Under the pieces are notes generated by a model. It was not told where the DNA came from. It saw only the letters and a program-made list of their open reading frames with translations, and made no database searches. This document shows, in pieces, positions 35,900 through 52,628 of a stretch of 62,849 bases of DNA (position 1 is its first letter; every line of letters begins with the position of its first letter). This DNA comes from Lachnospiraceae bacterium C7 (lineage in GTDB: Bacteria > Bacillota > Clostridia > Lachnospirales > Lachnospiraceae): NCBI GenBank assembly GCA_900113385.1, contig FOPE01000015.1:1-62849 (forward strand), given 5' to 3'. The translations under genes and the position numbers were made by a program.

Positions 35900-36406
35900 T
35901 TAAAAATATTTTTCTATGCTTTTATAATTTTTTGCTATTTCTTTGTTTTGAAAATTATTAGTATCTAGCCCATTTTCTATTAAAAGTCTTGCTATTGTAA
36001 GATACGCACTTCTTTTCTTTACATTTTCCTTATTGTCCACTGCTAATTCTACTGCTTTAACAAAAATGGTCTCATCTTCTTCGTTCCAACGCAATAATCC
36101 TTCCTTGCTATACTTTACATTGCAAACTGAATTTACATCTGCTCCATGGTCAATAAAAATTTTTGTCATATCCACATTCCCATCAATAACTGCTAAAGCA
36201 AGGGGTGTACAATTATTTACGTCCTTCTTTTCCATATCTGCTCCTTCATCTAACATTATTCTTGCTCCTAATAAATTTCCTTTTTCTGTTAAAATGTGAA
36301 GTGCAGTTTTTTTATCTGGATTATTATTTTTATTTAAATCTACTCCACTTGATTTCATTTTTTTAACTTTATCAATCAATTCTATTTCTTTCCACAAATT
36401 GCCCAT
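35900..36406 (-). CDS. Small ankyrin-repeat protein
   Basis: 168 residues with about three ankyrin repeats (KTALHILTEKGNLLGARIML, CTPLALAVIDGNVDMTKIFI, and a degenerate third unit). It has no signal peptide or membrane segment. GGGGGAGAAC precedes the ATG. Ankyrin repeats mediate protein binding, and the partner is unknown. It is upstream of the Jet operon but separated by about 135 bases, so co-transcription is uncertain. Confidence 0.82.
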   Translation of the reverse strand: MGNLWKEIELIDKVKKMKSSGVDLNKNNNPDKKTALHILTEKGNLLGARIMLDEGADMEKKDVNNCTPLALAVIDGNVDMTKIFIDHGADVNSVCNVKYSKEGLLRWNEEDETIFVKAVELAVDNKENVKKRSAYLTIARLLIENGLDTNNFQNKEIAKNYKSIEKYF

Positions 36407-36537
36407 GTTCTCCCCCTAATTTACTTTTTCACACAATTATTCAACTTTTCAATGTAATTATCGTATTTTTTTGTTTAATTTATTAATCTATTTTTTTATA
36501 ATCGAGCAGGAGGGGGTTGTACTGGTCAACATTTCTA

Positions 36538-36755
36538 TTAATCCCTTTCTATTCCGTCACAATAAACCTGTATGTCCGTCTTTTCTCCCTTATTTCTTAC
36601 CTCAATAAGCACATCGGCATATCTACCAAAACTTTCCTTTTCAAAACATTTCCTCAACTCCGTCAGCCACCATATAACATCCATCCCATTATCAAACTGC
36701 AAGGTTACGACAGGTATAGATTCCCTTGCTGTCTTTGTTTTAACACAACAGACTT
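36538..36755 (-). pseudogene. Unidentified ORF fragment without start codon
   Basis: An open frame reads SIPVVTLQFDNGMDVIWWLT and on to a stop at 36538. The sequence looks coding, with good hydrophobic patterning, but there is no start codon after an in-frame stop. I do not recognise the family. It is next to a transposase remnant and is probably debris of a mobile element. Confidence 0.45.
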
Positions 36756-36760
36756 ATGTC

Positions 36761-36871
36761 CTATGGTTCCTCTTGTATAACTTTGTGTGGCTTTTCAAAT
36801 CTTTCAAAATCACCAACTTCTACAATCATTGAAAGTGCTGTATGCGTTTTAATGCCAAGCAGACAACTCAT
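36761..36871 (-). pseudogene. IS110/IS116/IS902-type transposase remnant
   Basis: Translation gives GIKTHTALSMIVEVGDFERF, matching the conserved 'G(I)xxxTA...EIGDFxRF' block of the IS110 Transposase_20 domain. It then stops within 36 codons. The remainder of the gene is absent, so this is a relic. A perfect-looking AGGAGG lies in front of the ATG at 36871. Confidence 0.6.
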
Positions 36872-37035
36872 ATGTGACCTCCTATTGTATGCGGTAATCC
36901 CTGTTACCTGATATTGTTTTTTTCAATTAATATCTTACAGGTAAATCCACGAATCTACAATTGTGAGGTCACTTCATATTGTCTCCTAAAGATAGTGATG
37001 GATATTATCCATTAAGTCACCGTGTTCAAATACAT

Positions 37036-37213
37036 TTATATTGAATAATCTATCGTTTTCATTGATAAGTTAACACCATCAGAAACTATTGATTTGTCAA
37101 TACTTTCCCTCGTCAATTTGTCAAGTACCTTAGAATCAAAGGGTTTCCCAAAGTCCCATTTTACATCGAAATCCGTTTCTATGAATAAAACATCTACGTC
37201 TATAGAGAATTTT
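37036..37213 (-). other. Gene-poor stretch with a 60-codon open fragment
   Basis: A minus-strand frame immediately after the 245-residue gene reads FSIDVDVLFIETDFDVKWDF and so on to a stop at 37036. It lacks a start codon and may be the out-of-frame end of a former gene. The rest of 36872-37035 holds nothing recognisable. Confidence 0.35.
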
Positions 37214-37951
37214 CTATAGAACTTTTATCCCTGCAATAATTTTTGCAATATCATGATTTTTCCCTCCTTGTAAGTATTGCTTGGCAAAAATTTTGCCAGC
37301 ATTTATGATTTTGTTACTGAGATTGTCTAGAACTATCTTCTTGGCTTCCTCTTCTTTTAAAGCTTCTTTTGCTAATCTTGTTTTTTTATCAGTTGTTTTA
37401 CGAATTACTTTATAATCAGCATTGATTATCTCCAAATCTCTCTTATTTTTTTTCTCTCTTTCCTCCATTTTTTTTGCTTTCTTTTCAAAAGCTTTATTTA
37501 ACTCCCCTATTTCTTCATCCATTGAGAGCTTACGATATCCCTGATCTGAATTCTTATCTTTAATATATATTTCCCTTGTTCCATTCTCATGGCCTTGAAT
37601 AATCTCATCGTAGATACTTGCGTAAGCCTTCAACAAATCATTTACTTTCTCGGTTATATTTCGATACGTACATTCATACTCACCACTCACATCCTTTTCG
37701 CCATAGATTGATGGTAATTTACTACTCAACATATAGCCATAATTTGAGATAATTACACCTTTGGACGCTGCGTTTTTTTCGTCTATACTATTTTTGTATG
37801 ACTTAAATCCTTCTTCTGAAATCGTAAGACTTATAGGATCGTCTAATTTGATGTCATAGTTTTCATCGTCCAAATCAATTATCCTGTTTTTTGTATTAAC
37901 CGAAATTGAATTTGTCAACACTCCCTGGTCAAATGTATTATTAACTCTCAT
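37214..37951 (-). CDS. Hypothetical protein with C-terminal coiled coil
   Basis: 245 residues that I do not recognise. The N-terminal half is polar with SISVNTKNRIIDLDDENYDI and KGVIISNYGYMLSSKLPSIYG. Residues about 145-215 form a strongly charged coiled coil (EKKAKKMEEREKKNKRDLEI), and the end is hydrophobic (IAKIIAGIKVL). There is no signal peptide. GGAGAA precedes the ATG. It is the last gene of the agrB-agrD-secreted-protein group, 60 bases after the secreted protein gene, which suggests co-expression. Confidence 0.7.
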   Translation of the reverse strand: MRVNNTFDQGVLTNSISVNTKNRIIDLDDENYDIKLDDPISLTISEEGFKSYKNSIDEKNAASKGVIISNYGYMLSSKLPSIYGEKDVSGEYECTYRNITEKVNDLLKAYASIYDEIIQGHENGTREIYIKDKNSDQGYRKLSMDEEIGELNKAFEKKAKKMEEREKKNKRDLEIINADYKVIRKTTDKKTRLAKEALKEEEAKKIVLDNLSNKIINAGKIFAKQYLQGGKNHDIAKIIAGIKVL

Positions 37952-38013
37952 TATTTTCTCCTTTCATTGTCTTATGCTGGTAAAACCAGCATAAGATAAA
38001 TATTTAGAAATTA

Positions 38014-39546
38014 TTATTCTTCACCATTATCCTCATACAAATTCATAGAATAAGATCTTGTCCATGTAATTGAATTAGATCCAACTGGTGCAAAATCGTA
38101 ATAATAATTGAATTCAACAATATCAATCAATCTACCAGTGGATGGATCTATCAATACTGTGACATTATTGAAATTATGTTGATAAGTATTCATAGAATAA
38201 GCGCCTGTCCCCAAACAGTTAATCCTATAGAATTGAGTATTGCCAACATAAGTAAGTAGAAGCGCAGGACGACTACTCACATTCATCGCTGGTTTTGTTG
38301 AGCTATGATAATAAACTGCAGCCGGCTCATATACATCTGAAAAAGTAATCCATTCTCCAGCATCAGGATCAATAGATATATTATAATATTGACCACCAGC
38401 ACTATTGGATAAATTATTTACATAAGAATATGAAATATCAATCAAATTTCCATTAACATAATTTACCGTGGCATCATTATTAACTTCAAGTACGATCCCT
38501 GCAGATTCACTAATACCAACTATAAATGTAGATGAGCTATCAGAAACATTTGCTATCTTCTTGAAATTAACTGTATAGGTACTCGTTGCAGAATAGACGG
38601 AGTTATCATTGGTTGAGACTGCAAAATAATACGTACCGGCATTAGCCTTAATAAATCCATTTGTATTGTCAATACTATATAATCCAGCTCCTGTGCCTGT
38701 GCTTCCTGCATAGCCTATAGAATAACCATCTGTAGACGTAATTCCATATTTAATCACTGCAGGGCTATCCAAAGTGATCTTATAATAGTCGTAATCTAGC
38801 GGATTATCTATTACTCCTGTTACATTTCCAAATCCTATGGTCGTGGCATCAGCGAGACTGTCATTTATTTCATTTGCCACATCTACGGAACTCTGGAAAA
38901 ATGCAAACGCATAATTTCCGGTACTTTCACATCCACTAATGGCGAAAAAGTATATCCCAGAATCTACTACTGTATTAAGCAGTTCTGTAACACCTACACC
39001 CTCCGTTGCACTTCCATCAATCAATTCCAAACTTGACGTTTCATCATCGACACCAAACAAATATAAATCCGCATCAAGTGCTTCATTCATCTGAAGGAAA
39101 ATGGTAACTTTACTTGCCGCCTCAGCGTTGAATGCATACCAACGGAATTCATTTGCGTTCTCAATCGTCCCATTCCATGCCGTATTGTTTGTTACGATGT
39201 AAGCATTGTTGGGGTCAGTATTAGGCTGTTCTTCTTCGTCTTCCTCTCCAGCCCCCTCATCAGGAAGTTCAACGTCCTCTTCAAGAATCTTTTCTTCAAC
39301 GGCATGATCCAAATGGTTATAATCGACCTCATGAATCACCTCTGGCGGCATCTCGACTTCCGAAACTTCAAAATCGGTAATCATGTCGCTATCGTCAAAT
39401 TCAGCGATAATATTTTCTCCGCTTGATTTCACGTACTTTTCTTTTGAAGATTCAGCTGCATATACTGTACTTCCACCAATCCCGGATGAAAGCATAGATA
39501 CCGCCAGACTAAATGCAATAGCTGAACATAAAAATTTTTTCTTCAT
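38014..39546 (-). CDS. Secreted protein with PPC-like beta-sandwich domains
   Basis: About 510 residues from ATG 39546 (MKKKFLCSAIAFSLAVSML), preceded by AGGGAG. The signal peptide ends near VYAAESS. An acidic segment (ELPDEGAGEEDEEEQP) is followed by two prepeptidase-C-like repeats: NAYIVTNNTAWNGTIENANE ... SGIYFFAISG, then NEINDSLADATTIGFGNVTG ... AGTYYFAVSTN. About 180 further residues have no recognised domain. No protease motif was seen. It lies 20 bases after agrD, so it may be an Agr-linked surface or export protein (inferred). Confidence 0.78.
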   Translation of the reverse strand: MKKKFLCSAIAFSLAVSMLSSGIGGSTVYAAESSKEKYVKSSGENIIAEFDDSDMITDFEVSEVEMPPEVIHEVDYNHLDHAVEEKILEEDVELPDEGAGEEDEEEQPNTDPNNAYIVTNNTAWNGTIENANEFRWYAFNAEAASKVTIFLQMNEALDADLYLFGVDDETSSLELIDGSATEGVGVTELLNTVVDSGIYFFAISGCESTGNYAFAFFQSSVDVANEINDSLADATTIGFGNVTGVIDNPLDYDYYKITLDSPAVIKYGITSTDGYSIGYAGSTGTGAGLYSIDNTNGFIKANAGTYYFAVSTNDNSVYSATSTYTVNFKKIANVSDSSSTFIVGISESAGIVLEVNNDATVNYVNGNLIDISYSYVNNLSNSAGGQYYNISIDPDAGEWITFSDVYEPAAVYYHSSTKPAMNVSSRPALLLTYVGNTQFYRINCLGTGAYSMNTYQHNFNNVTVLIDPSTGRLIDIVEFNYYYDFAPVGSNSITWTRSYSMNLYEDNGEE

Positions 39547-39566
39547 TCGAAAGCTCCCTCCTTTTC

Positions 39567-39740
39567 TCACTCACCGACAGCCTTATCTTTTAAAACTATG
39601 CTTTCTTTCGGTCTTTTAGGCTGATGGATAATTCCGCCACAATTGGGCCACCAGTTGGACATGTTGTTCAGCACTTCTCTTTCCGCCACCTTCTGAGCGC
39701 ATTTAAGAAGAGTCTCCTTGGCTTTACTTTGTTCCTTCAT
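39567..39740 (-). CDS. agrD: AgrD-type autoinducing peptide precursor
   Basis: A 57-residue gene that overlaps the 3' end of agrB by 17 bases. It has an amphipathic N-terminus (SKAKETLLKCAQKVAE), then SNWWPNCGGII and the tail HQPKRPKE. This aligns position by position with staphylococcal AgrD (Cys, four residues, then DEPEVPKE). The predicted mature peptide ends in a five-residue thiolactone ring Cys34-Gly-Gly-Ile-Ile38. No receptor genes agrC/agrA are in the window. Confidence 0.82.
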   Translation of the reverse strand: MKEQSKAKETLLKCAQKVAEREVLNNMSNWWPNCGGIIHQPKRPKESIVLKDKAVGE

Positions 39741-40263
39741 CGATTCTTACCTCCTGTTTGAAAATTTTTGCTAAGCTCATCAATATAGCGCATAAGATAA
39801 CGCCCATTGACATATATGTTAAGTACATTTCCTTAACACCAATCATAAAGAATGAAGCAATAATACATACTTCGATAGCAAGAATACGCCGTGAAAGTTC
39901 TTTTGATTTTTCCAATTCCATGCTGTCACAATCCATATTAGGATGATTAATCGAACCAATGATCATTACCTCTATTGCAGACACAGACAACAAAACATAC
40001 AATACAAGAGGATGCGAACTCAGCAACGGTTCAATCATCACAACCCCGATAAAAACAGCGGTTGTCGCAATATAGCATTGCCAATATTTATCGCAGTGAA
40101 ACCCACCGCTTCTCCTCTTTAATAGGTCAAAGAATCCCCAAAACAAAGTCATCGGAATAAGGCGTTTAAACATCATCCCAATGAATATCATCGTGATCAG
40201 GCTAATTGATGTCTCAAATATTTTAATAAACGCATATATCAATCCATCTTGCAGAAAATGCAC
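39724..40263 (-). CDS. agrB: AgrB-type peptide protease/exporter, N-terminally shortened
   Basis: 179 residues with several transmembrane helices. The catalytic segment RRSGGFHCDKYWQC has His56 and Cys63, seven residues apart as in S. aureus AgrB (His77, Cys84). It processes AgrD. Compared with the family, about 20-25 N-terminal residues are missing. The only start is GTG 40263 without a ribosome site, and an in-frame stop lies two codons upstream. The shortened end coincides with an intron remnant, so this allele may be inactive or poorly translated. Confidence 0.8.
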   Translation of the reverse strand: MHFLQDGLIYAFIKIFETSISLITMIFIGMMFKRLIPMTLFWGFFDLLKRRSGGFHCDKYWQCYIATTAVFIGVVMIEPLLSSHPLVLYVLLSVSAIEVMIIGSINHPNMDCDSMELEKSKELSRRILAIEVCIIASFFMIGVKEMYLTYMSMGVILCAILMSLAKIFKQEVRIDEGTK

Positions 40264-40269
40264 TTTTCA

Positions 40270-40624
40270 AGCAGGAAATGACTATTGCCCCATACAGCCC
40301 TATGCAAAAAGGACAACTTATATAGGATCAGTTGAGCCTCCACAGGCTCGACTTGTCTGGCTGCTGCTTACTCACCACTCCGGCTTTTGCCTATACCCTA
40401 TTAATTGTGGCCATAGATATACCGGCTTCTTTTGTGCGGCATTTTACCTCGTTGCTGTCCATCGGGCCGTCGTCCAGCATACCCTAATAGCTTTATCGGC
40501 CTTAGACTCAGCTTTCTTTACGGTAAGAATACTACGATAACCTTTGCCTTAGGCTATATCCTTCCCACTACCAGGCGGATTCGTGACTTGAACCCGTTAG
40601 AAACATGCGCCGTTAGGCGCACAC
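40270..40624 (-). mobile_element. 5' fragment of a group II intron (IIC-like), ORF and domain V missing
   Basis: On the minus strand the element starts GUGUG at 40624, the group II 5' consensus. It then forms a GUGCGCC/GGCGCA hairpin and contains UAGCCUAAGGCAAAGGU, very like domain I of the Oceanobacillus IIC intron as I recall it. It starts immediately behind a terminator hairpin, the preferred target of IIC introns. It is clearly richer in G+C than its surroundings. No reverse transcriptase and no domain V hairpin follow, and the fragment runs into agrB. Confidence 0.65.
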
Positions 40625-40660
40625 TCAAAAAACCTGTAGGGCTTTTGCTCCCTACAGGTT
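40625..40660 (-). terminator. Terminator of the EAL gene, used as intron target
   Basis: On the minus strand, AACCTGTAGGG and CCCTACAGGTT form a perfect 11-bp stem followed by TTTTTTGA. The group II intron sequence begins at the next base. Confidence 0.85.
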
Positions 40661-40689
40661 ATATATAAAAACATGGCATATGTTTTTCC

Positions 40690-40795
40690 CATTATTTATT
40701 ATGTATCACGCGTTTATGCGCTATGCATTTGTGTTATGTGTTCACGTGTTATACATTTATATAATATGCATTTGTGTGTTACACATTTATGCATA
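40690..40795. repeat. AT-rich degenerate repeats at the 3' end of the EAL gene
   Basis: Repeated variants of GTGTTAYACATTTATRYAT, with GCATTTGTGTG, run from 40690 through the stop codon of the EAL gene (40779). They are related in sequence to the block at 55589-55735. Confidence 0.55.
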
Positions 40796-42692
40796 GCTCA
40801 TCTGGATTTATATTATTATGGTTACCTAATAATTTAGTATTTTTTGATGATTTGTTTTTCTTTATTGATTTTCTGCCAACAGTTCTATGATTGTTTGATA
40901 GTCTCTTTGATTTTTTTGTTTTTTCTTTATTATCAATATTTTCTTTGACGAATTCTATTAATTTTTCGTCAAATGGTGCTGGCTTTCCAAATAAATATCC
41001 TTGAGCATGATTGCATCCTATTTTTTTCAAAAAGTCAAACTGCTCTTTTGTTTCAACACCTTCTGCTAAAGTGCCAATTCCCAGAGTCTCAGCCATATTT
41101 ACTATCGCTTTTAGAATTTTCTTTGTTTTAGGATTTGTATCAAAATCTTTCATAAACAACATATCTATTTTTAACATGTTAAAATCAAAATCTTTCAATA
41201 CATTAAATGAAGAATATCCACATCCAAAATCGTCCATCCATACTTCATATCCTCGAGTTTGGAATTTTTCAATTTGGAATTTTAAATCATCTGGATTTTC
41301 CATTAATACGCTTTCTGTAATTTCCATTTTGATAAGATTTTTATCTATTTTATGTTTTTGTACAACCTTATCTATATAAGAAACCATATCTCCTAGCTCA
41401 AAGTCTAATCTAGATAAATTGACTGAAATTGGCACTAGTTTAACTCCTTCCTCTTTGAGGTTTGCTAGATTTTCACATATAGCCGAAACCATAAATTTAT
41501 CTAACTTATGTATAAGTCTATATTCTTCTAAAATTCCAATATAATCTGCTGGAGATAAATTGCCATATACTGGATCAACCCATCTTGACAATGCTTCAAA
41601 CCCACTTAACTTACCTGTTTTTGCGCTAAATACTGGTTGATAAAAAACAACTAAATGTTTATTTGCAATAGCACTATCTATATTATCAACAATATATTTT
41701 TGTTTATTTACTATTTCTACTAATTCATTATCAAAGAATCTATATTTTTCACGATATCTTCCTTTAATACTATCACAAGCAATTTTAGCTCTATCACTTG
41801 CAATAATTACATCAATATCTTCTTTTGCTTCATATATTCCGGCTTTTACTTCTAGCTTTTCTGAATCAGAATATAACGCAACGCAATGATAAATTATGTC
41901 TATTTTATCAATGATATTGTATTCACTTGATACAACTATAAAATGATCTTGTGCAAAATGCGCCACTAAACTTTCTGGAAAGACCTCATCTAGCGCTTCT
42001 GCTAAATATTTTAGTAATTCATCGCCTTGCTTTGCACCGTATTTTTCATTATATTCTTTAAAATTTTCAACATCAAAATGGATAAATTTAGTTGTTTTTC
42101 CTTTTTTCATATTTTCACCTAAAATCATAGGTGCAACAGAACTATAAAATACTCTGTTTGGAAGACTAGTAAGAGAATCTAATTCATTTTTTAAAGTATC
42201 TTCTTTTCCTTCCTGAGCCTTTATGTAATCACTCATATCAAATACGAAAATATATGCATAAGTACATCCGTCTTCTTTGTCATCAACTAATAAATAATCA
42301 CAATGTATCCATCTAAAAACTGTATTGATTAAGCAGATAAATTCTATTTCATCGTTATACTGACCTTGTGTAAAACGATGCATCAAAATTCGTCTGTCAA
42401 AGAAAAGTCTTACTTCATCTCTTTCCGATAATAAATCAAGTCTACCTAAAATTTTATTCAATAATTCTTCGTATGAGTTGTATCCTGAACTTATAATATT
42501 TTTTAAATTGCGCATGCAGCCAAGGTGCTCTACCATCGCTTCATTATTTGTTAAATTTACTTTAAACATTGCTAAATGATCTAATAAATTTTTGTCCGAA
42601 TAAAATTTAACAATATCTTGAAACCTTTGGCTTTCAATCCAATTAAGCATTACTTTCTGTACTTTTTTAGCTCTAACTACTTGTTTTCTCAT
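40779..42692 (-). CDS. c-di-GMP phosphodiesterase (EAL) with degenerate GGDEF domain
   Basis: 637 residues. The N-terminal sensor-like region of about 170 residues is unassigned. The GGDEF domain has AKQGDELLKYL in place of GGDEF, so cyclase activity is unlikely. The EAL domain is complete: FEALSRW, PISVNLSRLDF, MEITESVL, DDFGCGYSS, KIDMLF, AEGVET and QGYLFGKP are all present, so c-di-GMP hydrolysis is predicted. A basic low-complexity tail (KKSKRLSNNHRTVGRKSIKK) follows. No membrane helix was seen. Confidence 0.92.
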   Translation of the reverse strand: MRKQVVRAKKVQKVMLNWIESQRFQDIVKFYSDKNLLDHLAMFKVNLTNNEAMVEHLGCMRNLKNIISSGYNSYEELLNKILGRLDLLSERDEVRLFFDRRILMHRFTQGQYNDEIEFICLINTVFRWIHCDYLLVDDKEDGCTYAYIFVFDMSDYIKAQEGKEDTLKNELDSLTSLPNRVFYSSVAPMILGENMKKGKTTKFIHFDVENFKEYNEKYGAKQGDELLKYLAEALDEVFPESLVAHFAQDHFIVVSSEYNIIDKIDIIYHCVALYSDSEKLEVKAGIYEAKEDIDVIIASDRAKIACDSIKGRYREKYRFFDNELVEIVNKQKYIVDNIDSAIANKHLVVFYQPVFSAKTGKLSGFEALSRWVDPVYGNLSPADYIGILEEYRLIHKLDKFMVSAICENLANLKEEGVKLVPISVNLSRLDFELGDMVSYIDKVVQKHKIDKNLIKMEITESVLMENPDDLKFQIEKFQTRGYEVWMDDFGCGYSSFNVLKDFDFNMLKIDMLFMKDFDTNPKTKKILKAIVNMAETLGIGTLAEGVETKEQFDFLKKIGCNHAQGYLFGKPAPFDEKLIEFVKENIDNKEKTKKSKRLSNNHRTVGRKSIKKNKSSKNTKLLGNHNNINPDELCINV

Positions 42693-42770
42693 AAATTACA
42701 CTTCCTATTGTAAATCCTCGTTTTTATTGTGTACCAGTTACTATTTTTACTTATTCTATGGCAAATTGAG

Positions 42771-42806
42771 TAAAAAAAAGACACTATTGTTCTAATAGTG
42801 TCTTTT
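42771..42806 (-). terminator. Terminator after the LeuA-AraC gene
   Basis: AAGACACTATT and AATAGTGTCTT form a perfect stem with a five-base loop, and on the minus strand eight T follow. The intergenic region 42693-43096 otherwise holds only AT-rich DNA. Confidence 0.85.
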
Positions 42807-43096
42807 GATGTACTTAATAACAATTTGTCAAAACTATAAACTACACTAAATGAACATTTTGATTTATCTAAATATCTAGTAACCAAAATATGCCATACGC
42901 TTTGCTTATTCAATTCCATATAGTGCGTCACAGTTATATTAATTATGCTAATAAAGTCCCGACATTTTATTAGCTACACTTTTCTTTTTTTCGCACATAT
43001 GTGTAGTATAATAGTCTTAAATTAAACTGTCAATCGTATTTGTATTTTTTAATAAAAACTTAATAAAGTTTCTTTTTTATTTATTTTTTATTAATT

Positions 43097-45088
43097 TTAT
43101 CTATTGTCATTTCTATATTGAATAGGAGTTTTGTCAAACATTCTTCTAAATAATCTGTTAAAATGTTCTACATTTGAATATCCTACAGCTAATGCTACAT
43201 TTTCAACTGTCATATTTCCATTTTTTAACAATGTTTTTGCTTTTTTCATTCTAATGCTTGCTAAATGCTCTCCAAATGTTTTTCCAGATTTTGATTTAAT
43301 ATATTTTGAAATATATGGTTCAGACAAATGGAATTTCTCTGACAATTCTTCTAATGTAACATCCTTATAATTTGCCTGGATATAATTCAAAATTGTTAAC
43401 AATCTTCCGTCTTTTCCTTCTTCATTCAAACCTATTCCTGGTATTTTATTTGTTGCAACTGTTAGTGCATGAATTGATGCTTTTATTATATCCTCGTCCA
43501 TTCCTGCGCCCCAATATTTTTGACCATCACAGGTAATTGCAACATATGCCATAGCTTTAGATGATGAACCTTTTGAAAGAGCATGCTCTTCATATTCTGA
43601 CAATTCATAGCTTACTCTAAAATATTCTTTTATAGTGTTACATACAGCATCTAAACGTCCATTTCCCATAGCATCAACAATTATTTGTCTTTCTCCGTCA
43701 ACAATTGTAGTTTCTGCCATTATTCCATCATCTTGTCTAAAATGACATTCTGGAATTGTAAAATGTGGTGTGTAATTTATATATTGATTTTCAAAAATTT
43801 CATATACCCATTGTGGTGACAACTCTTTATGAGCCTCATCTGATACGTGTTTTACTGCATATCCAACTTCTTCACGCATATTTTTTGGTAACGATAAGCT
43901 AAAGTTTTGTTTTAATATATAACTTACTCCGCCTTTTCCTGACTGACTATTAATTCTAATAACATCTGAATCATAACTTCTTCCAACATCAACTGGATCA
44001 ATTGGCAAATATGGTACTGTCCAATATTGTTCTTTTCTTTCTTCTCTATATGACATACCCTTTGCAATTGCATCTTGATGGGATCCTGAGAATGCTGAAA
44101 ATACAAGATTTCCTGCATAAGGCTGTCTATCTCCCACTTGCATTCTAGTAAGGCGTTCATATTTTTCTCTGATTTCAGGCATATTTGAAAAATCTAATTT
44201 TGGATCTATTCCATATGAAAACATATTCATTGCCAATGTAATTACATCAACATTACCTGTTCTTTCGCCATTTCCAAATAATGTTCCTTCTATTCTATCT
44301 GCTCCTGCTAATATTCCAAGTTCTGCATCTGCTACACCTGTTCCTCTATCATTATGTGGATGTAAACTAAGAGTTACATTATCTCTATATTTTAGATTCT
44401 TGCTTACATACTCAATTTGTGTGGCAAAAATATGTGGCATTGCTGTTTCTACTGTTGCTGGAATATTAATAATTGCTTTATTTTCCTTAGTTGGTTTCCA
44501 TACATCTAACACTGCGTTACATACATCTACAGCATATTCTACCTCTGTACCATGAAAACTTTCAGGACTATATTCAAATAAAAAATTTCCTTCTATTTCC
44601 TTTGCAAGATCATTTAAAAGTTTAGCTCCATCTACTGCTAATTTTTTTATTTCTTCTTTATCTTTTTTAAATACCTGCTCTCTTTGAGCAACTGATGTAG
44701 AATTATATAAATGAATTACAGCCCTTGGCGCACCTTTTACTGCTTCGAAAGTCTTTTTAATAATATGTTCTCTGGCTTGAGTAAGCACTTGCACTGTAAC
44801 ATCTTCTGGTATCATATCTCTTTCAATAAGAGTCCTCATAAACATATATTCAGTTTCTGATGCTGCGGGAAAACCTACTTCGATTTCTTTAAAACCTATT
44901 TTTACTAACATTTGAAAAAATTCTATCTTCTCATCTAGACTCATTGGCTCAATTAAAGCCTGATTACCATCTCTTAAATCTACAGAACACCATATTGGCG
45001 CTTTATCAATATAATCTTTCTTTGCCCAATCATACACACACACTGGTGGCATAAAATATTGTCTCTTATACTTATTCACTTTTTCCAT
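43097..45088 (-). CDS. leuA: 2-isopropylmalate synthase fused to an AraC-type DNA-binding domain
   Basis: 663 residues from ATG 45088, preceded by GGAGG. Residues about 30-320 are the catalytic TIM barrel (SVDLRDGNQALIEPMS, with LSLHPHNDRGTGVADAE and EGTLFGNGERTGN). A linker follows, then the leucine-binding LeuA dimer domain (about 435-550; YVAITCDGQKYWGAG). Residues about 561-663 are an AraC/XylS double helix-turn-helix (LEELSEKFHLSEPYISKYIK; VENVALAVGYSNVEHFNRLF). The enzyme condenses acetyl-CoA with 2-oxoisovalerate in leucine synthesis. The fused domain suggests that it also binds DNA, perhaps under leucine control (inferred). No leuBCD lies nearby. Confidence 0.93.
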   Translation of the reverse strand: MEKVNKYKRQYFMPPVCVYDWAKKDYIDKAPIWCSVDLRDGNQALIEPMSLDEKIEFFQMLVKIGFKEIEVGFPAASETEYMFMRTLIERDMIPEDVTVQVLTQAREHIIKKTFEAVKGAPRAVIHLYNSTSVAQREQVFKKDKEEIKKLAVDGAKLLNDLAKEIEGNFLFEYSPESFHGTEVEYAVDVCNAVLDVWKPTKENKAIINIPATVETAMPHIFATQIEYVSKNLKYRDNVTLSLHPHNDRGTGVADAELGILAGADRIEGTLFGNGERTGNVDVITLAMNMFSYGIDPKLDFSNMPEIREKYERLTRMQVGDRQPYAGNLVFSAFSGSHQDAIAKGMSYREERKEQYWTVPYLPIDPVDVGRSYDSDVIRINSQSGKGGVSYILKQNFSLSLPKNMREEVGYAVKHVSDEAHKELSPQWVYEIFENQYINYTPHFTIPECHFRQDDGIMAETTIVDGERQIIVDAMGNGRLDAVCNTIKEYFRVSYELSEYEEHALSKGSSSKAMAYVAITCDGQKYWGAGMDEDIIKASIHALTVATNKIPGIGLNEEGKDGRLLTILNYIQANYKDVTLEELSEKFHLSEPYISKYIKSKSGKTFGEHLASIRMKKAKTLLKNGNMTVENVALAVGYSNVEHFNRLFRRMFDKTPIQYRNDNR

Positions 45089-45119
45089 AAATAAACCTCC
45101 AATAAAATTCACTAATATT

Positions 45120-45148
45120 ATTATACAACATAAATAATATTTATGTTA
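45120..45148 (-). promoter_or_regulatory. leuA promoter with palindrome between -35 and -10
   Basis: On the minus strand a consensus TATAAT occupies 45120-45125, about 30 bases before the GGAGG. Directly upstream lies a 21-bp near-perfect palindrome, AACATAAAT-N3-ATTTATGTT (45127-45147). This position, in the promoter spacer, fits an operator for an activator or repressor, possibly the AraC domain of LeuA itself. No T-box or leader peptide was seen. Confidence 0.55.
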
Positions 45149-45228
45149 TAAATGTTATCATATATTGGTTAAATTTTTAATGATTAAATTTAATCATTGT
45201 TCTTGATGTTTTTTAATATTTCGGCTTT

Positions 45229-45283
45229 TTTATAAAAAAATAAACCCACTATCAAATAACATATAATTTTCTGATAGTGGGTT
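45229..45283 (-). terminator. Terminator of the cobalamin operon
   Basis: On the minus strand, AACCCACTATC and GATAGTGGGTT form a perfect 11-bp stem with a long loop, followed by TATTTTTTT. It lies just past the cbiA-cbiL stop codon. Confidence 0.85.
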
Positions 45284-45296
45284 ATGATTAAGTATA

Positions 45297-47774
45297 CTAT
45301 TTTTTTATCTTTGTAGATAAATATTTCATTATTGTACCATAATTTTCCGGCTGATGAGGGAATGTACAATTCGTACATACCTTTATGGATTTTCCATCCT
45401 TTTCAATATACTCTGGTTTACCTAAACATTTATCCAAAAAATACATTGGACAATAACAAAACATACAGTTCATTTTATCTATATTTTTGTGACATGGATA
45501 ATATTTACATGCACGATTTTCAAAAAATGAGCTAGAATTTGGCATAGCTTCTTCTTTTACTTTTACTACTACTGTTGTTAAATAGCCTTGCAACTCACTT
45601 AATGCTTCTATTCCTTTTACAACTTTTTCTGTTGGCAAGCTACAATTCGCCACTCCATACACTTCAAGTTTTCTGACTTTACTTTCTTTTTGTAACATTT
45701 CTTGCAATTTCAAAAGTTTTTTGCCAGACTTCATATATATTCTCGTTCCTGTTAGTTCCTTGGTGTCTTCAATATTATATGTTCCTGGAATTATATGAAT
45801 TTGCTCACTTTTATCGCCTAATGAAATTCCAAGCCTAGCTGCTACTGCACAAAATGATGGTATTCCATTAATTAACTCAAATTCTATTTTATTTTCTCTA
45901 CATCTTTTCATAATGTAGCTAAATGTAGAATAAACAGTAACATCGCCTATTGTTATAAATGCAAGTTTTTTTCCATTTTTCAAATAATTCTCCATTATTT
46001 TAAAGGCCTTGTCATGTGCCTCATCTAATTTTTGGGAATCTTTTGTCATCGGAAAATCCACTGGTACAAATTTTTCTTCCTCATTTGGAACAAATTTCTT
46101 TATGGTTCTATAGGCATAGCTGTCTTTGTATTCCTTTGTGGGAATTATTATTTTGTCACATGTTTTTAAAATTTCTAACGCTTTTATAGTTAATAAATTT
46201 TCTTCCCCTGGTCCTACACCTATTCCATATAACTTGCCAATGATGTTTTTATCAATATTTTTATCTGTATCTTTATTGGTGTTTTGATCGTTGTTTTTAT
46301 TAATATTTTTATCTGTGTCCTTGTCTGTGTTTTGATTAGTACAATTTAATTCCAACTTTTTGTTATGGTATTTCTTCATTTTTTGAATGAGATTTTTCAC
46401 AAAATCAGGACACTGTGGATAATACAAATGTGGGAATCCCAAAAACATGTTTTCTGTTTCTATAATTCCTTCCCAGCTTTTTGTTTTTGAAGCCTTTTCT
46501 ATAAAGCAACTCTCTCCATTATGTGTACTGTCAAAATAGTGAAATTCATGCCCCTTTGCAACATTCCCCTCATTTAAAAACGTTGGAGTTTTTTCTTTAA
46601 TAGTAACATATCCAAATCTAACGAGTTTGCTAGTTTTAAAAGTAATTCCATCTACTAAACCAACCATTTGAAATTCTTTTTCATTTTCATCTTTTATTTT
46701 TTCGTGAAGATACATAAAGCCACCGCATTCTGCAATTATTGGTATACCTGCTTTTGCGTGTCTGCGAATGTCTAACATTATGTGAACATTTTCACTTAAT
46801 TGCTTAAGATATAACTCTGGATATCCACCTCCAAGTAAAATTCCATCAATATCCTTTGGTAATTGTTCATCTGACAATGGCGAAAAAAATTCTATTTTAA
46901 TCCCACTGTTTTTTAATGTGTCAAAATTTTCCTGATAATAAAAGCAAAAAGCCGCATCGTGAGCTACTGCTAGATTTAATTCCATGTCTTTATCATGAGA
47001 TGCTTCTATTGGAGAATCTATTTTTGGGGAATCTGATTCTTTGAAGTTTACATCTTGGGAATCTACTTCTGCATAATTATCTAACTGCACTTTTTCTACT
47101 TTAGATATTTCTAACAATTCTTCTATATCAATGTTTTCCTCTAAAACTTCACCAATTTGTTCAACTCGTTGTTCAATATCTTTTACCTCTTCCGGCATCT
47201 TAAGGCCTAGATGTCTGCTTTCAACTGCCAATTTTTCCTTTTTAGGAAAATTTCCCAATACTTTCACGTCAAATTTTTCTTCTATCATTCCCTTTAGGAC
47301 TTTTCCATAACTTTTAGAAGTTCTATTTAGAATGATTCCTTTAATTAATTTTTCTGTATCCCACTGTAAAAATCCACTAATCAGCGGTAATATACTCTGT
47401 CCCATTCCACCTACATCAATAACTAATACAATGGGGCAATTTAATATTTTTGCCAAATGATATGAAGAACCTTCTAACTTTGTTCCACCTACTCCATCAT
47501 ACAAACCCATAACACCTTCAACTACAGCCATTTCATAGTTTTCCATGCTTCTTTCAAAAATACTTTTTGTTTTATTTTCTCCAGTAAAAAAAGTATCAAG
47601 ATTTCTACTTGGAATTCCAATTACTTTTCTATGAAACATTGGATCTATATAATCTGGACCACATTTATAGGAACATACATTAATATTTCTTTTTTTTAAA
47701 ACTGATAAGAGCCCACATGTAAGCATTGTTTTTCCGCTTCCACTTTTAGGAGCCGCAATCATAATTTTATTCAA
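45297..47774 (-). CDS. cbiA-cbiL: Three-domain fusion: CbiA - CbiL - cysteine-rich domain
   Basis: 825 residues, probably starting at TTG 47774 with GGAGG eight bases upstream. Residues about 1-470 are cobyrinate a,c-diamide synthase (Walker A APKSGSGKT; GATase-like ECGGFMYL). An Asn/Asp/Lys/Thr repeat linker (NTDKDTDKNINKN) follows. Residues about 513-735 are precorrin-2 C20-methyltransferase (GIGVGPGEENLLTIKALEIL; FITIGDVTVYSTF). The last 80 residues carry about nine cysteines (CKYYPCH, MNCMFCYCPMYFLDKCLG, CTNCTFPHQPENYG), a domain known as a separate small protein near cobalamin genes. Last gene of the operon. Confidence 0.92.
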   Translation of the reverse strand: MNKIMIAAPKSGSGKTMLTCGLLSVLKKRNINVCSYKCGPDYIDPMFHRKVIGIPSRNLDTFFTGENKTKSIFERSMENYEMAVVEGVMGLYDGVGGTKLEGSSYHLAKILNCPIVLVIDVGGMGQSILPLISGFLQWDTEKLIKGIILNRTSKSYGKVLKGMIEEKFDVKVLGNFPKKEKLAVESRHLGLKMPEEVKDIEQRVEQIGEVLEENIDIEELLEISKVEKVQLDNYAEVDSQDVNFKESDSPKIDSPIEASHDKDMELNLAVAHDAAFCFYYQENFDTLKNSGIKIEFFSPLSDEQLPKDIDGILLGGGYPELYLKQLSENVHIMLDIRRHAKAGIPIIAECGGFMYLHEKIKDENEKEFQMVGLVDGITFKTSKLVRFGYVTIKEKTPTFLNEGNVAKGHEFHYFDSTHNGESCFIEKASKTKSWEGIIETENMFLGFPHLYYPQCPDFVKNLIQKMKKYHNKKLELNCTNQNTDKDTDKNINKNNDQNTNKDTDKNIDKNIIGKLYGIGVGPGEENLLTIKALEILKTCDKIIIPTKEYKDSYAYRTIKKFVPNEEEKFVPVDFPMTKDSQKLDEAHDKAFKIMENYLKNGKKLAFITIGDVTVYSTFSYIMKRCRENKIEFELINGIPSFCAVAARLGISLGDKSEQIHIIPGTYNIEDTKELTGTRIYMKSGKKLLKLQEMLQKESKVRKLEVYGVANCSLPTEKVVKGIEALSELQGYLTTVVVKVKEEAMPNSSSFFENRACKYYPCHKNIDKMNCMFCYCPMYFLDKCLGKPEYIEKDGKSIKVCTNCTFPHQPENYGTIMKYLSTKIKK

Positions 47775-47777
47775 TTT

Positions 47778-50024
47778 CTAAACCTCCATCTTTAATTTAA
47801 ACGCAAATAAAACTATAGGATTTTGTCCTTTAAAAAGATGGTACTTTCCTAAGGTTTCTGCCTTACTCACCTGAATTTGAGTTATATCAACATCATAAAT
47901 ATTTTCATCTGAATTTAAAACTTCAGTAATTTGAGCAATACTTTCAACAGTAACTGCAGATGTAACAACATTTATTGCGGATAACTCATTAGATGTAACC
48001 AAAGGACTTGTGGTACTATCGGCATTTTCTATTGTTTGATTTTTTTCTTCAAAGTTTATCTTCTTTAAAGCCTTAATAATCTCTAAAAATTTACCTTTTG
48101 TTCCACCGATAAAAACGCTATTAACTTTATTTTCTTTAATATATTCTACAATTTCTTCATTTTCCTTGGCATCTAGAACATCCGGAAACATTCCGCTAAT
48201 TACTTTTACATTAAAACGTTTAAATTTTTCTACGTTTTTTTGTATTAAATCAACTGCTTCTTTTTTTGTTTCTATAGCAAACACTCTTATATTTTCATCT
48301 AAATCGGCTGCTTCTATAGCTATAGAACCTGTTCCACTGCCTATATCTAGCATCATATCGCCTTTTTGTAATTGCAATTTATTTACTATAATGTGACGAA
48401 CTTCTTCTTTCGTCATTGGAACTTTTGCCCTTATAAACTCTGAATCTTTTAATTTAGGCCCAATAATTTTAGGCGCTACTTTTGAATTTTTTATAAGTAA
48501 CACATATAATCCTTTTTTCGATTTCAAAATACAATCCCGCGCAGAAATCTCAGCTATTTCTTCATCTTCATATGATAAATGATAGCCAAATTTAACTGTG
48601 ATACCTCCATTTTGTATTACAGTCACAATTTTTCCTATTTCATTAATATCTTCTACACCTGATACAATAAGAAAAGTTTTCTCATTATGCAAAATACTTT
48701 CTACAATTTCATTTTGCCAAAAAATTTTGTCTTTTCTTCCATGTATGCTCTGTATTTTAGCATCTTGCCATGTTTCTCCACACTTTGCTGCCATATAAAT
48801 AACAGAAGATATTCCTGGGATTACTTCAATCGTACCTTCTAGGCATTGAAAATCATTTTTTTTGCTTAAGGCATTTTCAATAGCTTTTCTAACCGCTTTA
48901 CAACCACTGTAAAATCCAATATCTCCCGAAAAAAGTATTGAAACATTTAACTTTTTTTTCAAAACATATTTCTTAGATATATTCTTTAAATAATTGACTA
49001 TGTCTTTAGGCATATAAATTGGATTTTTTTCTATTTTAGCCGGATATTTTTCTATCATTCGACTAGCTCCAATTAAAATATCAGCATTATTTATTTTTTC
49101 TTTTGCCTCTTCTGTTAAAAATTCTGATTTACCTGGACCAATTCCTATCAAAGAAATATCTAATGGCACTGTTTTATTGAAATTTAATTTCACATTTAAA
49201 ATATTTTGGATATGCTCGCACACCTGAATAAAATTATATGCTTCGTCCTCAACTGGAGAACCTATAACATAAGCCATACAATCTGAATCAACTGCTGCTT
49301 GGATTTTCTCTGCAAATCCTCCTGCTATACCGCTCTCTTTTGTTACTAATATTTTAATATTATAATTTTCTATAAAAAATTTATTCATTTCATATGAAAA
49401 AGGACCTTGAATTGCAATAATTTTATTTTTTGCAATTTGTTGTTCATTGCATATTTTTATACTTTCAACTCCAGGAAGTACCCTAACATATAATCTTTCT
49501 TTTACTTTTTCATCAACTGTAAATTCTGGTAAATTTTTACTTCCTGTAGTTAATAAAATATTTCCTGTAGTTTTTTCTAAAGCTTTTTCGCATTCTAAAA
49601 CAGAATTAAAATATTTTATATCTAGCTGATTTTCTTGAATATTTTTTTCTTTTTTATCTACGTCAAATCCAACGCTTGGAGTTAATTCGTTACTGAATCT
49701 AGTATCTCTTCGAAGTCTAAAATAATTTAACTCCTTGCAGCCAAACTTATTTACTGCATTTTTAATATTTTTTGTTACCAATGTGGCATATGGATGTGTT
49801 GCATCACATACTATTTTAAAATTATTTTCTTTTAAAAATTTGACTATTTCTTCTTCATCAAGTCGTCTATCTAAAACCTTTGCATATTTAGAATCCGACA
49901 TAATAAATTTTCCATATTCAGTTGCAACACATACTGTATGATATATTTGAGCTTCACTTAAAATTTCAGATAATTCTCTACCTTCTGTTGTTCCTGAAAA
50001 AATTAATACTTCTTCGCTATTCAT
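47778..50024 (-). CDS. cbiJ-cbiE-cbiT: Three-enzyme fusion: CbiJ - CbiE - CbiT
   Basis: 748 residues. Residues about 1-275 are precorrin-6A reductase (IFSGTTEGRELSEIL; CDATHPYATLVTKNI). About 285-510 are CbiE, the C5-methyltransferase (LIGIGPGKSEFLTEEAKEKI). About 535-748 are CbiT, the C15-methyltransferase/decarboxylase (MTKEEVRHIIVNKL; MLDIGSGTGSIAIEAADLD). CbiE-CbiT fusion is the CobL arrangement, and adding the reductase joins consecutive steps. It overlaps cbiH by eight bases. Confidence 0.93.
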   Translation of the reverse strand: MNSEEVLIFSGTTEGRELSEILSEAQIYHTVCVATEYGKFIMSDSKYAKVLDRRLDEEEIVKFLKENNFKIVCDATHPYATLVTKNIKNAVNKFGCKELNYFRLRRDTRFSNELTPSVGFDVDKKEKNIQENQLDIKYFNSVLECEKALEKTTGNILLTTGSKNLPEFTVDEKVKERLYVRVLPGVESIKICNEQQIAKNKIIAIQGPFSYEMNKFFIENYNIKILVTKESGIAGGFAEKIQAAVDSDCMAYVIGSPVEDEAYNFIQVCEHIQNILNVKLNFNKTVPLDISLIGIGPGKSEFLTEEAKEKINNADILIGASRMIEKYPAKIEKNPIYMPKDIVNYLKNISKKYVLKKKLNVSILFSGDIGFYSGCKAVRKAIENALSKKNDFQCLEGTIEVIPGISSVIYMAAKCGETWQDAKIQSIHGRKDKIFWQNEIVESILHNEKTFLIVSGVEDINEIGKIVTVIQNGGITVKFGYHLSYEDEEIAEISARDCILKSKKGLYVLLIKNSKVAPKIIGPKLKDSEFIRAKVPMTKEEVRHIIVNKLQLQKGDMMLDIGSGTGSIAIEAADLDENIRVFAIETKKEAVDLIQKNVEKFKRFNVKVISGMFPDVLDAKENEEIVEYIKENKVNSVFIGGTKGKFLEIIKALKKINFEEKNQTIENADSTTSPLVTSNELSAINVVTSAVTVESIAQITEVLNSDENIYDVDITQIQVSKAETLGKYHLFKGQNPIVLFAFKLKMEV

Positions 50025-50781
50025 TTGTTTTATATCCTCTTGGTGTAACTAATTTACCATTAATAATTTTTGTTGTGGAATTTCCAATAAAAACTGTTGT
50101 AAACATGTCCACTTGATGATCTTTTAATTCTTCAAATGTACAAGTTGTAATGCTGTTTCCTTCTCGTCCGATGTTACGAACATAACCACATGCTCTTGTT
50201 CCTTCCACATATTCCCCCATTATTTCACATGCTTTTTTTAAATAATCTTTTCTTTTTTTACTAGATGGATTATATAAAACTGTAACAAAATCACCGTAGG
50301 CTGCTGCTTTCAATCGTTTTCTTATAACTTCCTTTGGAGTTAATAAATCACTTAAACTTATCACGCAAAAATCATGATTAACTGGAGCGCCTAAATCTGC
50401 TGCACCACTTACTGCTGCTGTAATTCCTGGAACTACATATAATTCTATATTTTTGCTGTAATTTACTGACAATTCGTACATTAAAGATGCCATGCCGTAG
50501 ACTCCTGCATCTCCACTACATATCATTGCAACTTTTTTCCCTTTTTCTGCTTCTTCAAAACACATTTCACAACGTCGAACTTCTTGTTTCATTGGAGTTG
50601 ATAAAAATTCCTTTTCTTGAAATTTTTCACCTAACAAATCAAGATAAACCTTATAGCCTACTATTACTTCTGCTTCTTGCAAAACAACTAGTGCCTCTTT
50701 TGTCATCTGCTTTTCTTCACCTGGCCCCATGCCTACAATGTATATTGTATTTTTTATATCATTATTCAAGCTATTCTTCAT
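50017..50781 (-). CDS. cbiH: Precorrin-3B C17-methyltransferase
   Basis: 254 residues from ATG 50781, where GGAGGA lies ten bases upstream inside cbiG. The SAM-dependent tetrapyrrole methylase fold shows IYIVGMGPGEEKQMTKEAL, SGDAGVYGMASLMYEL and PGITAAVSGAADLGAPVNHD. It methylates C17 with ring contraction on the anaerobic pathway. Its start overlaps the end of cbiG and its end overlaps cbiJ-E-T. Confidence 0.94.
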   Translation of the reverse strand: MKNSLNNDIKNTIYIVGMGPGEEKQMTKEALVVLQEAEVIVGYKVYLDLLGEKFQEKEFLSTPMKQEVRRCEMCFEEAEKGKKVAMICSGDAGVYGMASLMYELSVNYSKNIELYVVPGITAAVSGAADLGAPVNHDFCVISLSDLLTPKEVIRKRLKAAAYGDFVTVLYNPSSKKRKDYLKKACEIMGEYVEGTRACGYVRNIGREGNSITTCTFEELKDHQVDMFTTVFIGNSTTKIINGKLVTPRGYKTNE

Positions 50782-51856
50782 CAATGCTGATCCTCCAGTT
50801 TTCCTCAATTATTGCCAAAGTTACGCCATCTCTAGCCATTTTATGCATTACTACTTTTCCTTGGTTTTTTGAATAAAATAATGCTGATGTTTCACAAACA
50901 TTGCCTACACCGACGGTTTTTTTTACGAATTCTGATTCCTCAAAATCTCCTTTGATTTTTTTTAATTCATCAGCTGTATATGTATAAAATGGTATCTGGT
51001 GTTTGTTTGAAAATTCAACCAAACCTTTTTCATTTTTTTTATTAATTATTGATGTTATTGCAACACATTCTTCTATATCTATTGAAAGCTCATCTAATTT
51101 TTCCAAAATAAACTCTTCTATCTTAGCAAAAGATGTATTTTTTTTACAGCCAATTCCTAAAACGTATTTTTTGGGATATAAATATAACGCCGCATTTATT
51201 GTGTTTGTCTTTAACTGCTTATTATTTTTATCTGCAATAACCACATCTACCTTTTCTTTTGGTGGAAATTTTTTTATATTAATTATTGTATTTCGAATTG
51301 AAACAGAATGTTCTTCAAGGTACATGTCATGATCATCTTCTATAGACATTGTAATAGGTTGACCATCTAAAACCTTTGAAGATACTTCCGCTATTCCATA
51401 CTTGTTGCCTATAAATAGTCCATTTTTCTTTGCAAAAACATCTACTGCGAACAAATCTGAAATATCAGTTGCTGTTGTAATTACGGGAATTGCATCTAAT
51501 TTAGCTGCAACAAATATGGCTAGTTCATTTGCCCCACCATAATGACCTGACAAAATAGGGATAGCATATTGTCCTTTTTCATCTATAACCACAACTGCAC
51601 TGTCAGCTAATTTATTTTTTACGCATCCAGATATAGCTCTAACTGCAATTCCACATGCACCTATAAAAATTATTTGATTACGTTCTGAAAATTGTCGCTT
51701 TGTCCAGCTATAAATACTATCTCCTACGAATTGTATATCTTTATATGATTTTTTTTTGGAAAAACATTTCACTTCATAATTATCTTGCAATATGTCTTTT
51801 ATTTTTTCAGACAATTTTGCCCCTCTTGATGTAAAACTAATAATGCTTAGTCGCAT
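50771..51856 (-). CDS. cbiG: Cobalt-precorrin-5A hydrolase
   Basis: 361 residues from ATG 51856 with GGAGGGG upstream. The longer frame to 51931 overlaps cbiF and has no ribosome site. The N-terminal domain (MRLSIISFTSRGAKLSEKIK) and middle part (LSGHYGGANELAIFVAAKL) lead to the CobE-like C-terminal domain (LGIGCKKNTSFAKIEEFI ... VGVGNVCETSALFYS). It opens the delta-lactone and releases acetaldehyde, the step specific to anaerobic B12 synthesis. Confidence 0.94.
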   Translation of the reverse strand: MRLSIISFTSRGAKLSEKIKDILQDNYEVKCFSKKKSYKDIQFVGDSIYSWTKRQFSERNQIIFIGACGIAVRAISGCVKNKLADSAVVVIDEKGQYAIPILSGHYGGANELAIFVAAKLDAIPVITTATDISDLFAVDVFAKKNGLFIGNKYGIAEVSSKVLDGQPITMSIEDDHDMYLEEHSVSIRNTIINIKKFPPKEKVDVVIADKNNKQLKTNTINAALYLYPKKYVLGIGCKKNTSFAKIEEFILEKLDELSIDIEECVAITSIINKKNEKGLVEFSNKHQIPFYTYTADELKKIKGDFEESEFVKKTVGVGNVCETSALFYSKNQGKVVMHKMARDGVTLAIIEENWRISIDEE

Positions 51857-51869
51857 AACACCCCTCCAA

Positions 51870-52628
51870 CTATTCTTTTGCTTTTCGATATTCTGTTGAA
51901 AAATCAGGTGCATATAATCTTGATTTTTCATATTCTGTATATCCTAAAGCATCACCAACTATAACTAATGCTGTTTTTGTTATATTATTTTTGTTTGCTA
52001 TTTCAACCACATTTTCTAAAGTACATCTATATATTTTTTCATCTGGCCAAGTGACTTTATAGGCTAAAGCTACAGGTGTTTCTTTTTTATAACCGCCTTT
52101 TATTAAGCGTTTTACTAATTCTTCTAACATGCCAGTTGATAAATAAATTGCCATTGTTGCCTGATGCGCTGCAAATGATTCTATACTCTCAAGTGGTGGG
52201 ACTTTTGTCCTACCTTCCATCCTTGTAATTATAAGTGATTGAGATATATTTGGAAGAGTATATTCTACATTCATTTGAGCTGCTGCTCCAAAACAAGCAC
52301 TTACTCCAGGACAACTATCATATTTTATTGCCAATTTATCTAATTCATCCATTTGTTCTCTTACCGCTCCATAAACGCATGGATCTCCAGTATGAAGTCT
52401 TACAACATCTTGACCTTTTTTATTTGCATCTTTCATTACATCTATGACTTCATCTAAAGTCATCTTGGCACTATTATAAACTTGGCACTCAACTTTTTTA
52501 TAAGATAAAAGTTCCTTATTAACAAGAGAGCCTGCGTAAATAATAACGTCTGTCTCTTCTAAAAGTTTCTTCCCTCTCACAGTTATCAAATCTGCTGCAC
52601 CTGTTCCAGCTCCTACAAAATGAATCAT
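51870..52628 (-). CDS. cbiF: Precorrin-4 C11-methyltransferase
   Basis: 252 residues. Start at ATG 52628 (MIHFVGAGTGAADLITVRGK) with AAGGAG six bases upstream. The GTG at 52643 lies within that ribosome site. The fold matches CbiF/CobM: IIYAGSLVNKELL, VRLHTGDPCVYGAVREQMD, and PGVSACFGAAAQMNVEYTLP. It methylates C11 of cobalt-precorrin-4. Confidence 0.95.
   Translation of the reverse strand: MIHFVGAGTGAADLITVRGKKLLEETDVIIYAGSLVNKELLSYKKVECQVYNSAKMTLDEVIDVMKDANKKGQDVVRLHTGDPCVYGAVREQMDELDKLAIKYDSCPGVSACFGAAAQMNVEYTLPNISQSLIITRMEGRTKVPPLESIESFAAHQATMAIYLSTGMLEELVKRLIKGGYKKETPVALAYKVTWPDEKIYRCTLENVVEIANKNNITKTALVIVGDALGYTEYEKSRLYAPDFSTEYRKAKE

Follow-up and report, generated by a model that had tools for sequence, protein, structure and literature searches.

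A 2-isopropylmalate synthase fused to an AraC-type DNA-binding domain and a conserved element at its own promoter: a candidate self-regulating trigger enzyme in Lachnospiraceae

The trigger enzymes PutA, BirA, NadR and PepA of Escherichia coli combine a metabolic activity with a DNA-binding function, as is proposed for the protein described here (LeuA-HTH). To our knowledge, none of the four is the first committed, end-product-inhibited enzyme of an amino acid biosynthetic pathway carrying an AraC-type domain. PutA is described as having the putA/putP region as its single regulatory target (PMC8249747). It acts as a repressor in the absence of proline, which differs from the behaviour proposed for LeuA-HTH. 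The double helix-turn-helix (HTH) of LeuA-HTH is the same as that of AraC and RhaS, where the sensor part is a small ligand-binding domain instead of a complete enzyme. In Ada, an AraC-type HTH is fused to a DNA methyltransferase and the protein regulates its own gene, a likeness to the role suggested for LeuA-HTH; unlike the feedback proposed here, Ada is a DNA repair enzyme with an irreversible methylation trigger and no metabolite feedback. RhaS sites at rhaT and rhaBAD are described as ending just upstream of, or overlapping, the −35 region (PMC9429829), a placement that the element reported below resembles.

On the enzyme side, LeuA of the Mycobacterium tuberculosis type (1SR9, 3FIG) shares with LeuA-HTH the barrel, the hinge and the leucine-binding regulatory domain, but has no DNA-binding domain. 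In many HTH-free relatives a T-box leader is found upstream of leuA, an RNA that senses uncharged tRNA and works by antitermination, whereas LeuA-HTH would act as a protein at initiation; branched-chain amino acid T-boxes have been described in Clostridia (PMC2494555). The sequence-only reading of this locus knew of no characterised LeuA-AraC fusion, and no description was found either in one open-access library by title and abstract start, which is weak evidence since subscription journals are mostly outside it.

The window, that is the whole stretch analysed, comprises 62,849 nucleotides of Lachnospiraceae bacterium C7 (contig FOPE01000015.1). A complete LeuA continuous with an AraC-type HTH had been proposed at 43097-45088. 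The frame was confirmed, and its strand, previously unstated, is the minus strand, the plus strand being stop-rich across these positions. The open reading frame 43097..45112(-) has no interruption, and the likely start is the ATG at 45088, with GGAGG upstream (Table 1). All five Pfam domains score above their curated cut-offs; on the fused HTH, a double HTH of roughly 100 residues at the C-terminus, PF12833 reached 74.2 bits (cut-off 33.6) and PF00165 42.4 bits (cut-off 26.6), and the HTH_AraC match spans residues 622-660.

Table 1. Features of the fused gene and its upstream region in the window.
Feature	Position	Strand	Evidence or remark
leuA-araC fusion CDS, 663 aa + stop codon	43097..45088	-	ORF, Pfam, start ATG with GGAGG
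HMGL-like catalytic barrel, residues 31-308	44165..44998	-	Pfam PF00682, E 6e-71
IPMS_D2 post-catalytic domain, residues 327-393	43910..44110	-	Pfam PF22615, E 3.2e-33
LeuA_dimer allosteric domain, residues 424-549	43442..43819	-	Pfam PF08502, E 8.1e-22; GNG, YEEH positions conserved
AraC-type double HTH, residues 582-660	43109..43345	-	Pfam PF12833 (HTH_18), E 1e-20
Operator-like element AATATTAAAAAACATCAAGAACAATGATTAAATTTAATCATTAAAAAT	45173..45220	-	Motif discovery; R1 E 2.5e-8 in own genome
Extended −10 promoter TGATAACAT	45152..45160	-	47 nt downstream of first ATCA box

Structure modelling, which the sequence-only reading had proposed as a check, gave an AlphaFold model with seven helices at residues 561-662 behind the LeuA regulatory domain, joined to it by a short variable linker (mean pLDDT 83, pTM 0.58). 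The predicted helical region begins at 561, before the Pfam HTH match, and the domain packing of the model is unreliable, with pLDDT below 50 at 322-336, 359-384 and 556-558. The closest solved protein, top in both fold and sequence, was M. tuberculosis LeuA. The HMGL-like barrel, IPMS_D2 and LeuA_dimer domains were present in 43/43 aligned rows (37 fused and 6 unfused), and the equivalents of the M. tuberculosis catalytic and metal residues R80, D81, E218, H285, H287, N321, H379 and Y410 (the last being Y360 of the query by alignment) were invariant in all of them. The GNG motif and the equivalents of the leucine pocket residues Y554/H557 were also kept in every row. By its domains and catalytic residues, the window protein is classified as a 2-isopropylmalate synthase of the M. 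tuberculosis type, and the fusion as a predicted active enzyme and DNA-binding domain in one chain. When residues 107-663 were searched against its own genome, none of the 17 matches was a second LeuA; they were the gene itself, 15 to the HTH part only and one weak barrel match. Homologues of leuC and leuB are sited elsewhere in this genome.

A search for the LeuA plus HTH_AraC architecture across genomes found it widely, far beyond the window's genome. At least 89 of 397 family genomes carry the in-frame fusion to residue 659 or beyond, a lower bound counted by eye among the matches listed, down to about 841 bits. The 88 fused relatives besides the window's are 64-83% identical. Neither a stop or frameshift between the domains in the window nor absence from relatives, either of which would have spoken against the fusion, was observed. 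Two further genomes lie outside this count: in G061 the HTH is in another frame, and in G163 a contig end truncates it. In a phylum set of 299 genomes, 23 had a match at E ≤ 1e-200, four of them full length, three from the window's family (window included) and one, G673, from another family. A contig search found 101 loci, and 56 of the 80 kept were fused; named carriers are Roseburia faecis, Sporomusa ovata (Negativicutes) and Ruminobacter amylophilus (Gammaproteobacteria). Sequencing error, misassembly or chance was ruled out as the origin of the window's fusion by the same full-length in-frame fusion in these family genomes.

The Ruminobacter fusions are at L057, L059 and L060, and the element described below was seen in L057 and L059. 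By eye, the nearest upstream gene in L059 and L060 resembles a Gram-negative malE, which favours horizontal transfer over contamination. No conserved operon or neighbour of the fused gene was found in 52 loci, where the largest next-gene families had 3 and 4 members.

For the HTH, the barrel and the dimer domain, median dN/dS was 0.014 (14 pairs), 0.024 (14 pairs) and 0.033 (12 pairs), respectively; these values are rough, coming from 16 close pairs with saturated-dS pairs dropped and many dS high. In helices 590-601 and 640-651, many residues do not vary or hardly do so. The fused HTH is under strong purifying selection. Two loci depart from the fused arrangement. In L127 (575-200, G061:C54), LeuA stops and the HTH goes on in another frame, which has an ATG after AGGGAAG, with the element present, which is either a split gene or a frameshift. 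In L137 (about 600-640, G078:C6), a stretch of eight A marks a change of frame between the two parts, by slippage or assembly error, and the element is present but weak (R1 E 0.007).

Upstream of the fused leuA genes, motif discovery in 79 nonredundant 400-bp regions returned taTTAAAATAaATCAAtaAAAnTGATTAAATTTAATCATT, a partly palindromic, AT-rich element of about 40 bp. It scored above 20 bits within 400 bp in 64/79 nonredundant and 69/86 of all upstream regions; in 11 of the 17 low-scoring regions the element lies at a greater upstream distance, with a T-box motif in between in 8 of these. The window element had a leave-out score of 42.0 bits, the best score elsewhere in the window being −0.5. 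In its own genome, the leuA site was the sole strong match to R1 (next best elsewhere E 0.15), a sequence-only profile built from 46 elements, which include the window's and those of some genomes scanned later.

Co-occurrence of element and HTH was evaluated on the rows of a LeuA tree, reduced from 115 to 87 by removing rows more than 90% alike. L111 and L113 (contig ends inside LeuA), L118 (start uncovered) and the repeats L005 and L009 were left out before counting; L113 has the element at 42.8 bits, whereas L111 scores 8.3. By R1, the element was present in 57/61 HTH-bearing rows, which include the out-of-frame L127 and L137, versus 0/26 HTH-free rows. The HTH-bearing rows with no detected element are L024, L027, L043 and L091, of which L027 has only a weak opposite-strand match. 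The 48-column PWM gave 55/61, as L082, L092 and L093 fall below 10 and L027 is counted. In 20 further HTH-free loci the PWM found no element (0/20), and R1 only a 12.9-bit partial opposite-strand match in L260. A joint-change test for HTH and element gave two well-supported independent pairs (four in all) and none opposite, with a sign test p of 0.5, a sample too small for significance since HTH state and element follow one tree. L193 (G292), a relative from the window's genus, is fused and has weak partial matches but no strong element; in this relative the operator may have diverged together with the HTH.

R1 was also run over 394 genomes regardless of gene position. At E ≤ 1e-4 it matched 67 sites, spread over 66 genomes, which were compared by eye with leuA coordinates. 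All but two (65/67) lie on the same strand upstream of leuA, within about 800 bp. Among the 66 site-bearing genomes, 64 belong to the at least 89 fused ones and the other two are G061 and G163, and none of the approximately 303 other genomes scanned had a site at this threshold. Of the 89 fused genomes, 25 are outside the site list at this E value, up to 3 of them possibly outside the scan. Fisher's test on 64/25 versus 0/303 gave p 2.6e-53, which is no true probability because the genomes are related.

The two remaining sites are both outside the R1 training set. One precedes leuB by 100 bp, with ilvD next, in G341; the other precedes leuC by 79 bp, with leuD next, in G207, where leuA itself has only weak sites (E 0.001). 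All four gene identities come from NCBIfam models above cut-off, and a −10-like hexamer is found at 51 nt at these sites, one more than at most leuA genes. The stretches with the element ahead of leuB-ilvD and leuCD are L190 2779-4009 and L191 2805-4190. A wide leucine regulon was not found: a leuC site was present in 1 of 30 fused genomes (the leuC upstream region of L205 being cut by the contig end) and a leuB site in 1 of 29, plus a weak PWM-only site in another, so the regulon beyond leuA is small. The sequence evidence points to a regulon extension to leuB-ilvD and leuCD in single species, and candidate regulatory targets can be named for the protein, its own promoter at the great majority of sites.

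The element stands at a nearly fixed distance from a promoter. In 61/76 nonredundant regions TGNTANNNT starts 47 nt downstream of the first ATCA box, and in 7/76 at 46 nt, against a background of 0.28 per other position (highest other count 11, at 70 nt). A TANNNT hexamer lies 49 or 50 nt from this box in 76/76 regions, with a TG extension in 68. In the window, the predicted transcription start is near 45145, some 7 nt past the conserved −10. If the hexamer corresponds to −12 to −7, the element covers about −70 to −33. Resemblance to a −35 box was poor, with a mean best match of 3.2/6 versus 2.5 at random positions. In addition, a weaker second copy of the element occurs 57-77 bp downstream of the first in 41/76 regions, compared with 3/76 in an equal upstream stretch and 4/380 shuffles, which makes a second, promoter-proximal site probable for roughly one promoter in two. 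The first element precedes the −10 and, in those loci that were checked for it, the T-box leader as well; it is therefore a feature of the DNA and not of the leader RNA.

Other features of the window were noted around this promoter. A perfect TATAAT at 45120-45125, seen by eye downstream of the conserved −10, is possibly a competing or the true promoter. Further upstream, 45297-50024 holds two multi-enzyme cobalamin frames (NCBIfam), one of 825 aa (CobB and precorrin-2 C20-methyltransferase) and one of 748 aa (precorrin-6A reductase, CbiE and CbiT). A terminator-like hairpin with a T run, found by eye at 45233-45283, lies between these cobalamin frames and leuA and would be in keeping with leuA having a promoter to itself.

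In the LeuA-part tree of 87 rows, built by a quick method with 26/84 inner branches starred, the fused rows cluster, and the fusion label needs 4 changes versus 23.8 in shuffles. Unfused L108 and L130 sit inside the fused clade, both without the element. The T-box core motif was found in 15/26 HTH-free and 11/61 HTH-bearing tree rows (in one of the latter, L034, the motif is 789 bp off and may belong to another gene), and in 18/20 further HTH-free loci. Rfam confirmed a T-box in 10/11 loci scanned (fused L027, L033, L038, L079 and L094; unfused L108, L129, L131, L253 and L268), L130 being the one without, plus L274. At window positions 36000-52000, Rfam gave three matches at E ≤ 1, all below gathering scores and none to a T-box. 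T-box and element occur together in fused L033, L038, L079, L094 and L274, with the element upstream of the T-box leader, and, with both controls present, these genes resemble transitional stages on the way from T-box to protein control. From this distribution we infer the gains and losses of the fusion: a single origin is probable, from a T-box-controlled leuA through a dual-control stage after which the T-box was mostly lost, and the fused gene would have spread to other classes and phyla, taking its promoter element along.

On comparative grounds, it is quite likely that LeuA-HTH controls its own promoter through the upstream element, whatever the sign. The trigger enzyme coupling leucine sensing to DNA binding, as first suggested for this locus, gains support from these comparisons. 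DNA binding by the fused HTH, the ligand and the sign are inferred. In the proposed mechanism, LeuA-HTH would be a self-regulating biosynthetic trigger enzyme that makes 2-isopropylmalate and binds leucine in its LeuA_dimer domain, and the AraC-type domain directly behind it would bind the bipartite element, whose centre lies near −52 at the leuA promoter. The intact allosteric domain makes leucine the natural candidate signal, with 2-oxoisovalerate or some other ligand as alternatives. For LeuA of M. tuberculosis, the pockets for leucine are described at the dimer interface of the regulatory domain, with a loop that closes on binding (PMC11057210); with the HTH just behind this domain, leucine could reposition the two HTHs of the dimer. 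When leucine is scarce, LeuA-HTH would most likely activate its own transcription, and leucine binding would shut off activation together with the enzyme. Activation is preferred on account of the activator-like position of the element, which occupies the −35 region at a set distance from the −10 that follows. Where the weaker second site covers the −10/start region, as in about half of the promoters, activation may be limited or reversed, and leuB-ilvD or leuCD would also be targets in some species. By a narrow preference we favour the wider reading that this committed-step enzyme would combine catalysis, end-product sensing and class II activation of its own promoter. Such a one-gene feedback unit would have displaced T-box control across much of the Lachnospiraceae and would pass from phylum to phylum with its cognate promoter.

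The opposite sign is a tentative option within self-control: leucine-bound LeuA-HTH would be a repressor following corepressor logic, using the element and the promoter-proximal copy together, possibly by looping. An extended −10 can work without an activator, and the weak −35 resemblance is compatible with repression. The excess of second copies downstream (41/76) also speaks for it, as does the described change of Gluconobacter rhaT from inducible to repressible when a RhaS site was added just downstream of the −10 (PMC9429829). However, the second copy is under threshold in 35/76 regions, and the main element occupies the AraC/RhaS activator position alongside a poor −35 and at near-invariant spacing to the −10, which argues for activation by LeuA-HTH as the more probable sign.

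That a stand-alone AraC regulator binds the element, the fused HTH binding elsewhere or only tuning the enzyme, is unlikely: the own genome does have 16 other HTH_18 matches, but the element tracks the fusion across genomes, Sporomusa and Ruminobacter included, none of the scanned genomes without HTH sequence has a site at E ≤ 1e-4, and no conserved neighbour of the fused gene offers a candidate. Even less credit is given to the HTH as a hitch-hiking or decaying appendage with no regulatory role. The out-of-frame HTHs of L127 and L137 and the unfused L108 and L130 inside the fused clade would suit such decay, whereas the HTH has a lower dN/dS than the catalytic barrel, its helices 590-601 and 640-651 are conserved, and so is the element. 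The partly palindromic, AT-rich character of the element would also agree with an RNA leader or a CodY-type site that is no operator of LeuA-HTH, the least probable reading of all; the element is upstream of the −10 and, in the five loci with both controls, of the T-box leader, hence outside that promoter's transcript, and one strong copy per genome (two in one genome) is unlike a global regulator. Control of leuA by its own fused product stays the preferred explanation.

Metabolic enzymes that regulate transcription are few, and we know of none in which an AraC-type domain belongs to a biosynthetic gatekeeper under feedback inhibition. If the proposal is true, enzyme activity and gene expression would both be set by one allosteric event. 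With operator, promoter and ligand predicted, LeuA-HTH can be tested directly, and the unit could be used as a compact sensor of leucine. Here RNA-based T-box control would have given way to control by a protein, and what look like intermediates survive today among gut bacteria, Roseburia being an example. The fusion occurs in many gut bacteria, in which the first enzyme of the leucine pathway probably tunes its own production to the leucine supply.
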